From Halobellus limi (GTDB lineage Archaea > Halobacteriota > Halobacteria > Halobacteriales > Haloferacaceae), in assembly GCF_004799685.1 (NCBI RefSeq), contig NZ_CP031311.1, forward strand, positions 1,860,001 through 1,924,000: a stretch of DNA of 64,000 nt. Reading direction: 5' to 3'. The notes under the pieces were generated by a model. That model was given only the letters and a program-made list of their open reading frames with translations. It was not told the DNA's origin and did not search any database. Below are positions 8,602 through 34,620 of the stretch, piece by piece; position 1 is the first letter of the stretch; each line of letters opens with the position of its first letter. Position numbers and translations under genes: made by a program.

Positions 8602-8767
8602 AGCGTTTATCAACGATGGCGGGACCACAGTCTCCGTGACCTGAAGGCAGTCCCGCGTCGGGTCGCGGTCGTTCGGCACGTCGGCGCGGGCACGAGAACG
8701 ACGGCTGCCAGTTAGGCGAGGAACCGGCCGGTCGTCCGACGCGGGTGCCGACTGTTCGCCACCACTG
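8602..8767 (+). repeat. Dispersed intergenic element, copy A (candidate structured RNA)
   Basis: This segment aligns with 19616-19786. The shared parts are a TATA-like GTTTAT followed by ACGAT and GGGACCA, a hairpin whose arms are 8652-8659 (CCCGCGTC) and 8683-8690 (GGCGCGGG) around a 23-base loop, and a 3' block CGGGTGCCGACTGTTCGCC. In copy B the left arm is CCCGCGCC, so the stem is kept through a U-G to C-G change. Orientation (+) follows the TATA-like start. It lies about 60 bases after the FAD/Fe-S dehydrogenase gene. Confidence 0.5.
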
Positions 8768-8830: not shown

Positions 8831-8870
8831 GACCGGCATCGATCGGATCGGGGACGTGTACGCGTCTCGT

Positions 8871-8942
8871 ACTGATTACTCTCACTTTTTACCGCCGAAC
8901 CCACCCCCCGGCGCTCGGCGATAAGAGACGAGAGTAATCAGT
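8871..8942. repeat. Palindromic element, copy 1, between convergent genes
   Basis: The ends ACTGATTACTCTC and GAGAGTAATCAGT are perfect inverted repeats of 13 bases, and the inner arms (ACCGCCGAA / GCTCGGCG) pair imperfectly. A closely related, better preserved palindrome is at 34358-34440. Both lie between convergent genes. It could be a miniature inverted-repeat element or a strong bidirectional transcription barrier. Confidence 0.65.
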
Positions 8943-8943
8943 C

Positions 8944-10137
8944 TCAGGCGTCCAGCGGAGCCGTTCCCCGGTAGAACAGCCACGCGCCGAGGAGCGTCGC
9001 GGCGCCGATCACCAAGAGCGGCGGGGCGTAGCCGCCGGTGAGTCCCCGGAGCACGTTCAGCGCGATCGGGATCGAGAACGCCGTCGTCGCCTCCGCGACC
9101 GTGAAGATCCCGACGATGGCCGTCGCGTTCGCCGGCCCGAACCGCTCGATGATGATCGGCGAGAACAGCGGCGCGACCGCCCCGAGGCCGACGCCGAACA
9201 GGACGAGTAAGGCGTACATCGGGAGCGGCGTCGTCACCAGCGGGAGGGCGCCCATCCCGAGCGCCGCGAGGACGACGCCCGCGGTGAGCGTCACCCGCAT
9301 CCCGATCCGGTCGGCGAACTCGCCGCTGGCGACGCGGGCGGCGACGCTGACGCCGCCGACGATCCCGAACGCCGTGGCCGCGAGCGTCCGGCGGATGCCG
9401 TTCTCCGTGAGGATGCCGACGAAGTCCGCCGAGAGCACGAAGTACCAGCTCCAGATGAGCGCAAAGCCCGCGAGCGACGCCAGGAACGCGCGGTCGGTCA
9501 GGTTCGATCGGAACCACGTCGCGTCGACCGGCGAGACGTCCGTTCCCCGGCGCCCCGGCGGTCGACGGTACAGGAGGCTCGCGAGCAGGATGGCCCCCAC
9601 CGTCGCTCCGCCGACGACCGCGAACGCGCCCCTGACGGAGGTCCGTTCGAGCAGCCAGACCCACACCGGCGGCAGGACGAAGACGCCGAGTCCGTTCCCG
9701 GTCATCGTGATCCCCATCGCCCGTCCCTGGTACTTCTCGAACCACTGCGGGACCAGCGAGATGACGACGACGAACACCGTCCCGCCGGCCGTCCCGAGCA
9801 GTCCGAAGGCGAGCACCAGTCCCGCGAAGGAGGCGGAGACCTGCAACAGCGCGACGGCCGTGGCGAAGACGACGCCGGCGGCCGCGACGACCGGCCGCAG
9901 CGGTACCCGGGCGATGAGGACGCCGATCGCGCCGCCGGCGACGTAAAACGCCGCCGTCGTGATGGAGAAGATCGACGAGACGCGAAGGCTCGTGAGCCCG
10001 AACGCCTCACCCAGCGCCTGGGAGTACACGGTGAACGTGAAGACGATTCCCCAGATGAGCACGAGCAGGAGGACGCCCAGCGCGACGATGAGCCAACTGG
10101 TGAGCGAGTCGAGGGCGGAGTCTTGCACGTCTGTCAT
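8944..10137 (-). CDS. MFS transporter, OFA-like (carboxylate carrier)
   Basis: The 397-residue hydrophobic protein has 12 predicted spans in two halves of six, the major facilitator pattern. Recognisable parts are the loop after span 2 (LIARVPLRPVV), PQWFEKYQGRAMGITMTGNGLG in the fourth-fifth span region, and FGPANATAIVGIFTVAEATT late in the C-terminal half, a layout typical of oxalate/formate antiporter-like carriers. It probably moves a small monocarboxylate. It is divergent from the aldehyde dehydrogenase operon and ends only two bases beyond the palindromic element. No clear TATA box lies in the first 40 bases upstream, so it may have a leader; an A/T-containing stretch near 10215-10235 is the better promoter candidate. 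Confidence 0.85.
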   Translation of the reverse strand: MTDVQDSALDSLTSWLIVALGVLLLVLIWGIVFTFTVYSQALGEAFGLTSLRVSSIFSITTAAFYVAGGAIGVLIARVPLRPVVAAAGVVFATAVALLQVSASFAGLVLAFGLLGTAGGTVFVVVISLVPQWFEKYQGRAMGITMTGNGLGVFVLPPVWVWLLERTSVRGAFAVVGGATVGAILLASLLYRRPPGRRGTDVSPVDATWFRSNLTDRAFLASLAGFALIWSWYFVLSADFVGILTENGIRRTLAATAFGIVGGVSVAARVASGEFADRIGMRVTLTAGVVLAALGMGALPLVTTPLPMYALLVLFGVGLGAVAPLFSPIIIERFGPANATAIVGIFTVAEATTAFSIPIALNVLRGLTGGYAPPLLVIGAATLLGAWLFYRGTAPLDA

Positions 10138-19615: not shown

Positions 19616-19786
19616 GAGGGTTTATATACGATACCGGGACCAGACGGCCCGTGAGTTGACGACCACCCCGCGCCGGGTCGCGGTTGCTCGGCACGTCGGC
19701 GCGGGAACCGAGCGGGGAACGGAACCGGCGGCGACGCCGCCGGCGAACGCCTCGCGAGCGGGTGCCGACTGTTCGCCAACCACTCC
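19616..19786 (+). repeat. Dispersed intergenic element, copy B (candidate structured RNA)
   Basis: Partner of 8602-8767. It begins with GGTTTATATACGATACCGGGACCA, here described in two parts: a TATA-like GTTTATATA and a GGGACCA block. The hairpin has arms 19667-19674 (CCCGCGCC) and 19698-19705 (GGCGCGGG) around a 23-base loop that differs from copy A at only two positions. The 3' block CGGGTGCCGACTGTTCGCC is shared exactly. It fills most of the 320-base gap between the zinc protein and the thioesterase gene; no protein frame there looks real. Confidence 0.5.
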
Positions 19787-33116: not shown

Positions 33117-34361
33117 ATGAGCTCAACCGACATCGACCAACCAGTCTTAGTCGCCGGTGCGGGGCCGACCGGGATGACCGCGGCGCTCGCGCTGCACGCG
33201 CGTGGAATCCCGACCGCGATCCTCGAAGCCGACTCCGAGGACCGCGACCGCGCCGGGAGCCGTGCGATCTACGTCCACGGATCGACGCTCAAGACGCTCG
33301 AACGGAACTACCCCGGCCTCGGGAAAGACCTCGTCGACGAGGGGCTCGTCTGGCCGACCCGCCGGACGGTCTGGCGCGGCAAGGACGTCTTCGAGCGGAC
33401 CTACGACAACCCCGGCGGCAGCGGCGAGTTCCCCCACTTCACCAGCCTCCCGCAGGTCACCACCGAGAAGTACATGCACGAGGCCCTGGACGACCTCGGC
33501 ATCGACATCCACTGGGACGCCGGCGTCGAGTCCGTCGAGTCGACCCCCGACGGCGTCCACGTCGAGACGGCGGACGGTCGAGAGTGGGAGACGCCGTACC
33601 TCATCGGCGCCGACGGCGGCGGCTCGGCGGTCCGAAAGGAGATCGGCTCCGAGTTCGAGGGCGACCAGTCGGAGAACTCCTTCATCATCGTCGACGTGGA
33701 GACCCTCGACGGCAACACGATCGAGGAGGAGCCCATCCCGTTCGAGCGGCTGTTCCACTACGACGCCCCCGAGGCGGGCGGCCGCAACGTGATGCTCGTG
33801 CCCTTCTCCGGCGGGTGGCGGCTCGACATCCAGTGTCTCGGCGACGACGACCCCGAGGAGATCGCCAGCGACGAACAGATGCGCGAGTTCGTCCGCGAGA
33901 TCATGGGCGAGGAGTACGTCGACAACATCCAGTGGACCTCGACGTACAAGTTCCTCCAGGTCATCGCCGACTCGTTCGTCGACGAGCACCGCCGCGTGCT
34001 GCTGGCGGGCGAGGCCGCACACCTGCTGGCTCCCTTCGGTGCCCGCGGGATGAACTCCTGCGTCGCCGACGCCGACGAGGCCGCCTCGGCCGTCGCCGTC
34101 GCCGCGCGGGCCCGACAGGACGCCGTCGCGCGCAACGAGGTCGAACTGTACGCCGCCCGCCGCGAGCGCGCCGCCGAGTACAACGTCGACGCCGCGGGGC
34201 AGGCCCTGGACTACCTGCAGGGCGACACCCCGGTCACCGTCCTCCGCAAGGAGGTCGCCGCGTCGCTGGCGGACCACTTCGAGTCGGCCGGCGAGTACCT
34301 CGACGACGCGCCGTACGGCCCCCACGACGCCCCGCCGATCGCGGCGACGGGCAACTACTGA
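33117..34361 (+). CDS. FAD-dependent monooxygenase (aromatic hydroxylase type)
   Basis: The 414-residue flavoprotein belongs to the class A hydroxylase fold: dinucleotide-binding GAGPTG (14-19), YLIGADGGGSAVR as the DG motif and RRVLLAGEAAHLLAPFGARGMN as the GD motif region, where Glu 299 replaces the usual Asp. Such enzymes hydroxylate aromatic rings using NAD(P)H and O2. It could make gentisate or a related diphenol for the dioxygenase at 18163, either on the free acid or its CoA ester. The TGA stop forms part of the palindromic element that follows. Confidence 0.85.
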   Translation: MSSTDIDQPVLVAGAGPTGMTAALALHARGIPTAILEADSEDRDRAGSRAIYVHGSTLKTLERNYPGLGKDLVDEGLVWPTRRTVWRGKDVFERTYDNPGGSGEFPHFTSLPQVTTEKYMHEALDDLGIDIHWDAGVESVESTPDGVHVETADGREWETPYLIGADGGGSAVRKEIGSEFEGDQSENSFIIVDVETLDGNTIEEEPIPFERLFHYDAPEAGGRNVMLVPFSGGWRLDIQCLGDDDPEEIASDEQMREFVREIMGEEYVDNIQWTSTYKFLQVIADSFVDEHRRVLLAGEAAHLLAPFGARGMNSCVADADEAASAVAVAARARQDAVARNEVELYAARRERAAEYNVDAAGQALDYLQGDTPVTVLRKEVAASLADHFESAGEYLDDAPYGPHDAPPIAATGNY

Positions 34362-34440
34362 TACCGGTTACTCTCCCTTTGTACCGCCGAGCCTCACCCC
34401 GGTTGTCGGCGCTCGGCGGTACAAAAGGAGAGTAATCAGT
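34358..34440. repeat. Palindromic element, copy 2, overlapping a stop codon
   Basis: Arms 34368-34392 and 34411-34435 pair over 25 bases with one mismatch, around an 18-base loop. The outer end GAGAGTAATCAGT equals that of copy 1 at 8871-8942, and the inner ACCGCCGA/GCTCGGCG blocks match too. Its left edge includes the TGA of the monooxygenase. The other side faces the convergent acyl-CoA dehydrogenase gene. Confidence 0.7.
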
Positions 34441-34620
34441 CTGAGCGCGTCGACGAGCGGCCGCTCCGCGAACTCCGTTTTTTGCCGGCGCGATTCTCTC
34501 CGGGGCCTCGCCTCACCGGCTCTCGTTGGTCCGACCGGGTCGTGACCGGGCGGATCAGCGACCTGGCCGACCTCGGGCAGTGGCGCGACCGACCTCGGGA
34601 AAGAGCGCGACCGATCCCGC

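Follow-up and report, generated by a model that had tools for sequence, protein, structure and literature searches.

An apparently undescribed family of haloarchaeal RNA genes with a predicted leaderless two-codon frame and a covarying pseudoknot

Two related elements between genes of the Halobellus limi window

The window analysed here, a 64,000-nt stretch of the Halobellus limi genome, contains two similar plus-strand elements, copy A (8602-8767) and copy B (19616-19786), at the positions where an original prediction made from the sequence had placed them. Both lie between called genes, as had been proposed: copy A is flanked by a gene for a FAD-oxidase/ferredoxin-type protein and an MFS transporter gene, and copy B by a gene whose small product has no Pfam match and by a thioesterase-like gene. 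Each element begins with a TATA-like box (TTTATCAA at 8606-8613 in copy A, 30 nt upstream of the start triplet, a spacing compared below with that of protein genes; TTTATATA at 19621-19628 in copy B), followed by a GGGACCA promoter box (consensus GNGRCCA) at 8621-8627, in fixed register to the TATA, and at 19636-19642. The predicted RNA 5′ end coincides with a two-codon frame, GTG-ACC-TGA at 8636-8644 in copy A and GTG-AGT-TGA at 19651-19659 in copy B. Downstream, the 5′ strand of a stem, P1, occupies 8652-8660 and 19667-19675 and its 3′ strand 8682-8690 and 19697-19705, and the enclosed loop carries a pseudoknot strand, TCGGCAC (8673-8679 and 19688-19694). A variable connector, L3 (8691-8744 in copy A; 19706-19761 in copy B, with a predicted GC-rich hairpin inside), leads to the 3′ strand of the pseudoknot, GTGCCGA (8745-8751 and 19762-19768), and to a conserved tail, CTGTTCGCC (8752-8760 and 19769-19777), at which conservation ends in copy A.

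Much of what had been described for the pair is recovered. The hairpin of 8 bp with a 23-nt loop is present and can equally be drawn as 9 bp with a 21-nt loop; the stem has a U-G pair in copy A where copy B has C-G, and the loops differ at two positions. A 3′ block is indeed common to both copies, with a length of 21 identical nt by the present reading instead of the 19 claimed. Not noticed at that time were the promoter, the two-codon frame at the 5′ end and the loop's pairing with the 3′ block, and the element extends further than its first description had it. The description as a two-copy element holds for the resemblance of A and B, which is real, but not for the number, since the genome contains 52 copies or more, A and B included.

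A second short palindromic repeat (arms CTGATTACTCTC and GAGAGTAATCAG) is found at 8866-8948 of the window, just 3′ of copy A, and again at 34358-34445. It also occurs, whole or in part, inside the connector of two other RNA copies (L063 and L050).

Copy number and distribution

The recurrence of the element greatly exceeds chance. A blastn search with copy B matched 53 pieces of its own genome (self-match 4e-101, next best 7e-29), and the 3′ block GGGTGCCGACTGTTCGCC, with up to two mismatches allowed, occurs there 47 times, compared with no occurrence of the reversed-pattern control. Forty-eight copies were anchored on fetched loci and four more were found later, which sets the lower bound of 52; one scanner match, on the minus strand of L032 (score 45), was dropped as false. 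A covariance model (R1) lists 63 own-genome matches at E ≤ 0.001, the weakest of which are candidates only.

The covariance search of haloarchaeal genomes that had been suggested with the original prediction matched the family in 317 of the 392 genomes of the order, spread over 74 of 95 genera; in this R1 scan 11 candidates were scored per genome, so copy numbers from it are lower bounds. From the order-level matches, the 63 strong ones of 65 were used as copies. Within the genus, R1 finds the RNA in 12 of 17 genomes, namely that of H. limi and those of 11 relatives with 19-54 matches, while five have none. These five (G001, G009, G010, G012 and G016) carry zero copies where their siblings carry 19-60, and their base composition probably differs, because far fewer first-look candidates were obtained from them. 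A second model (R2), run on 26 chosen genomes, matches in 16 of them, with as many as 60 copies in G008, 46 in G197 and 33 in G367, and with 5 each in G393 and G212. A phylum-level scan of 246 genomes gave 36 that match, every one within the same order, and no match outside it.

Rfam release 15 gives no match over the window at the gathering score; in the copy A region, searched to E 1, the sole match lies below threshold and on the opposite strand, and among 20 loci with copies the only match is an RNase P gene. This archaeal RNase P RNA gene, at L112:1638-2032, directly adjoins a family copy in G030. Plasmid and phage records contain no match to copy B. The 19-base loop pattern occurs at 59 viral-contig loci, and no viral copy was counted because the best R2 score among them is 22.6 bits, as against approximately 50-100 for true copies. 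No description of the RNA family was found in the literature (open-access full texts), and a study of haloarchaeal vesicle RNAs that sought a common motif in enriched ncRNAs reports none (PMC10927574). The elements therefore form an apparently undescribed family of small haloarchaeal RNAs.

Comparative evidence for a stem and an H-type pseudoknot

Aligned on the promoter, the 48 own copies share one order of parts: the TATA box TTTATATA, GNGRCCA, GTG-NNN-stop, about six free bases, CCCGCGTCG, a loop, CGACGCGGG, the connector, GTGCCGA and CTGTTCGCC. The predicted RNAs of these copies are about 80-210 nt long (median 120), with a family tail conserved near CUGUUCGC and a connector that is different in every own copy and ranges from 5 to 135 nt. 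The loop in these copies contains GCGG and TCGGCAC, and its pairing with the 3′ part of the RNA, across a P1 stem of 9-10 bp, makes an H-type pseudoknot. Loop and 3′ heptamers are complementary in 48/48 own copies, of which 37 have the common type, 10 have matching substitutions on both sides (four types, in 6, 2, 1 and 1 copies) and one has a G-U pair.

In an alignment of 42 full-length own copies (A2, from which the long-connector copies L029, L032, L044, L045, L058 and L063 were left out), P1 and the pseudoknot pair in 99.4% of cells, and 10 of the 16 pairs have changed on both sides, against 2.1 in shuffles; when the partner is slid, pairing falls to 25-53%. Copies from other genera have a wholly different P1 sequence, yet the pairing is kept. 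Across 86 diverse copies from the order, P1 cells are paired in 99.7% compared with 73.6% in shuffles, although this alignment was fitted to P1, which favours P1 pairing (slid controls, 28-55%); double-change cells number 170 compared with 44, and compensatory changes occur at eight of the nine P1 pairs. In 129 of 138 copies a sequence complementary to the loop heptamer follows downstream, whereas random reassignment of the heptamers gives 48.8 ± 3.8. Several of the nine misses are off by one or two positions, and in L044 the complement lies outside the searched stretch.

It is comparison among copies, and not single-sequence folding, that gives the evidence for structure; folding is not significant against shuffles (z -0.48 to +0.53), owing to the high GC content of the sequence. 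Further copies with compensatory changes, whose absence had been named as the finding that would speak against a structured RNA, are present in number, and the small-RNA option of the original prediction comes out strongly supported by these comparisons.

The 3′ tail occurs in discrete variants across genera (CTGTTCGC, CTGTCAGC, CTGCCAGC and CTGTTAGC), which by eye are independent of the loop sequence and are perhaps a protein-binding site. When tail, loop and 5′ end were compared with a stretch of the rRNA operon, few exact complements of short motifs emerged, none supportable as a partner; for the 9-nt 5′ motif GTGATCTGA, an exact complement occurs once on the plus strand of that stretch.

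A two-codon frame at leaderless spacing

An RTG-NNN-stop frame stands at leaderless spacing in 153 of 157 copies in all (47/48 among the own copies; the total is made up of 134/138 in a first set and 19/19 in a set of further divergent copies). Elsewhere in the sequence surrounding the copies, the same nine-base pattern turns up at 7 of 30,360 positions (0.02%). The start triplet is GTG in 146 and ATG in 7, and the middle codon is free, taking 17 forms. The stop is TGA in 127 copies, TAG in 16 and TAA in 10, with TGG once, and a Fisher test on its two purine columns gives p = 4e-14, a nominal value since the copies are related. Four copies depart from the pattern: L047 has TGG, L108 has GTA, and L103 and L113 have ATG-TGA three bases later. 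The search models include the frame columns and favour their common letters, but the columns are treated separately, so TAG would not be favoured over TGG. TGA, TAG and TAA are equivalent to translation termination alone.

The position of the frame is the one expected of a leaderless start. TATA starts before the start codons of 268 called genes peak at -30 (7 genes) and -31 (3 genes), and the RNA's TATA lies at -30, with the GNGRCCA box at -15 to -9, so the TATA-to-RTG spacing equals that of protein genes. Where the spacing is longer by one, the frame moves along with it (offset 31 in 126 copies, 32 in 8). Leaderless transcripts are reported to make up 72% of the protein-coding ones in Haloferax volcanii, where GUG accounts for only 6% of leaderless starts (PMC4983044). 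Since GTG nevertheless opens 146 of the 153 frames, strong initiation is not the selected trait.

The spacer from the stop to the 9-bp P1 core is 7 nt in 135 copies, 6 in 9, 8 in 8 and 5 in one (n = 153). This stop-to-pseudoknot spacing is that of recoding pseudoknots, and the combination by which a recoding signal is recognised, namely a stop, a 5-9 nt spacer and a downstream pseudoknot, is found here with 6-7 nt in most copies and a pseudoknot that covaries. Coding by readthrough was nevertheless rejected: no continuing frame was found past the stop, where the three frames are open in 138, 130 and 140 of 153 copies and frame 0 is thus not specially open. In addition, connector lengths are not multiples of three (remainders 0, 1 and 2 in 10, 18 and 20 copies).

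The RNA promoter also precedes protein genes

The promoter pattern TTTATA-N9-GNGRCCA, searched by itself, occurs 36 times in the own genome, compared with zero matches when reversed and zero when one base off register. These 36 comprise 28 known copies, the four new copies and four sites before protein genes, in all four of which the ATG stands exactly at the position of the RNA's RTG. Across the order, the promoter with an ATG is found in 133 of 293 genomes (three matches for the reversed control). Among 30 such loci listed, 14 frames stop at codon 3, one stops at codon 4 and 15 run for at least 151 codons, one of which (L371) may not be a gene; of the 15 short-frame loci, the 12 that were inspected all have the RNA stem and tail by eye. 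Twenty further hand-picked loci comprise four that stop at codon 3, two of 7 and 11 aa, and 14 of at least 149 aa. These bimodal lengths show that the two-codon frame belongs to the RNA genes as such, with its start at the position expected of leaderless genes.

Scans of Pfam and NCBIfam, each covering 10 of the 19 proteins linked to the promoter (in the hand-picked set, the 14 long frames were assigned by eye), returned DUF7382, DUF7283, DUF7310, a HerA-type ATPase, a ParA/MinD-type ATPase, DUF7857, Pilin_N and NucS_N, and a 470-residue fragment from the own genome resembles TadA weakly, with a score that falls far short of the curated cut-off. Halobacterial pilus systems that have ATPases of this kind, together with MinD-type ATPases and a coiled-coil subunit, are described in a census of archaeal type IV pili (PMC4858521). 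Among 36 chosen genomes, 18 of the 19 that bear the RNA also have DUF7283, as do 7 of the 17 RNA-poor ones (p 0.0008); the family is present in the Haloferax volcanii control and was not found in G197, one of the RNA-rich genomes. The promoter with an ATG has no match in any of the 18 listed RNA-negative genomes covered by both scans, several of which are small or incomplete.

Comparison of these loci shows the same promoter ahead of long frames for proteins of apparent pilus or DNA-handling type, with ATG at the RTG position, and the shared promoter and the family names suggest a link between the RNAs and a pilus. At L366, a CetZ/FtsZ-type gene (by eye) lies divergent from the DUF7310 gene that has the RNA promoter.

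Genomic context and inheritance

Most own copies (46 of 48) are clear of called genes, with L032 and L056 overlapping called frames. The downstream gene is on the opposite strand for 32 of 48 own copies and 45 of 63 order-level copies (77 of 111 together; p 5e-5), and same-strand downstream genes are at least 79 nt away in 15 of 16 own cases, the remaining one being the overlapping called frame at L056. Divergent upstream genes are found for 37 of the 48 own copies and for 31 of 63 elsewhere. These orientations and distances indicate stand-alone genes and not leaders: a cis-regulatory leader or riboswitch is ruled out by downstream genes that are mostly opposite in strand or distant.

In sister species, 21 of 27 copies have flanks that match those of one own copy, lying beside orthologues of its flanking genes, and these stand-alone ncRNA genes are usually inherited in place. 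Neighbours that recur across genera, by eye, are uvrA, mutS-mutL and a TFB gene. In two sister-species loci (L088 compared with L056, and L091 compared with L023) the RNA looks inverted between the same neighbours, which may reflect local inversion or re-insertion.

A candidate ribosome-engaging RNA and its alternatives

Comparison among copies establishes a common design of promoter, start-X-stop frame, fixed 6-7 nt spacer, H-type pseudoknot and conserved tail. The reading that we favour, and consider reasonably probable, is that each copy is a gene for a leaderless structured RNA for which engagement of the ribosome is the function or a condition for the function, and which would be produced alongside a type IV pilus-like machine. 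Transcription would begin on the R of RTG, and a 70S ribosome would engage the leaderless 5′ end, form a single peptide bond to give a dipeptide, and then terminate. During termination the pseudoknot would sit at the mRNA entry channel, a placement suggested by the stop-to-pseudoknot spacing, which equals that of recoding and readthrough signals. The product would thus be a ribosome-docking regulatory RNA within a pilus or DNA-handling regulon, with a presumed effect on ribosomes or translation while the pilus regulon is on. A bolder form of this proposal, which we regard as tentative and rather doubtful, is a new ribosome-docking class in which start-X-stop holds the ribosome at the pseudoknot, made from dozens of loci along with a DNA-handling type IV pilus machine and serving as a translation brake or ribosome store in a competence-like or stress state.

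The most serious rival, which we judge unlikely, supposes that the start site set by the promoter happens to give an RUG 5′ end, and that the immediate stop bars ribosomes from invading and unfolding an RNA that works with a protein or RNA partner by way of its pseudoknot and tail. The preference for the weak start GTG, the unconserved free codon and the conservation of the loop GCGG and of the tail past the needs of pairing would all suit such a role. Mere avoidance of ribosomes, however, would allow the RTG to be lost, and yet nearly all copies retain it, while the exceptional L103 and L113 have a start-stop shifted by three bases.

A family of trans-acting antisense sRNAs built on a common chassis, with L3 as the target-specific part, would account for connectors that are unlike in every own copy, but we think it quite improbable: in other genera L3 often measures no more than about 7-15 nt, in L057 it has 5 nt, and the predicted L3 hairpins of the four copies that were folded are not clearly better than shuffles.

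The mobile element that had been offered as the other option in the original prediction, here a miniature element with its own promoter, fares worse and is very improbable. It could explain why the copy number varies from 0 to about 60 among related species and why L088 and L091 look inverted, but the copies are old (core identity median 74%, best 93%), with no near-identical pair, most sister-species copies keep orthologous neighbours, and P1 has accumulated compensatory changes; the recent near-identical copies and variable insertion sites of a MITE-like element were not found. Similarly remote is a DNA-level signal, for instance dispersed sites for uptake or for the binding of a regulator, the RNA being a by-product, which would fit the dispersed, multicopy distribution and the promoter class common with pilus-type genes but leaves aside the stop-codon equivalence, the fixed spacer and the covariation of the loop with a distant 3′ block, all of them constraints at the RNA level.

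We know of no RNA class with the plan of a leaderless start-X-stop followed by a pseudoknot; should the ribosome reading fail and the RNA family alone hold, the family would resemble known ones in kind. Reaching about 60 copies per genome at most, present in 74 of the 95 genera sampled and without a match in Rfam 15, it would rank among the most abundant archaeal ncRNA families. The two-codon frame would offer a clean natural test of a leaderless ribosome meeting an immediate stop, and the promoter appears to mark an unstudied haloarchaeal regulon with pilus, HerA-like and NucS-like proteins.

Comparison with known systems

The closest mechanical likeness is to readthrough and frameshift signals, in which a stop codon, a 6-8 nt spacer and an H-type pseudoknot meet at the ribosome entry channel. 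Unlike these signals, the haloarchaeal RNA has no continuing frame, and its stop stands at the extreme 5′ end of a stand-alone RNA, after one sense codon. Start-stop and minimal ORFs, such as eukaryotic uORFs and bacterial two-codon minigenes, likewise have a start followed by a stop at once or after one codon; these are located in mRNA leaders or are artificial, whereas the haloarchaeal mini-frame opens a predicted leaderless ncRNA that is encoded in many copies and has a promoter of its own. To our knowledge, no RNA class is built around leaderless starts. In haloarchaea most transcripts are reported to begin on the start codon itself (PMC4983044), and some non-coding sRNAs of Haloferax volcanii, for example sRNA_61, are described as carrying ribosomes without a detectable product (PMC12482152), so that the likeness, by description only, would lie in a haloarchaeal, non-coding, ribosome-occupied RNA with no detected product. 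In genomic organisation, with several copies under the promoter of one regulator, the family resembles the bacterial multicopy regulon sRNAs. These sRNAs (Qrr and csRNAs) are present in few copies and act by antisense pairing, whereas the haloarchaeal family reaches about 60 copies, each built on a pseudoknot and a two-codon frame.
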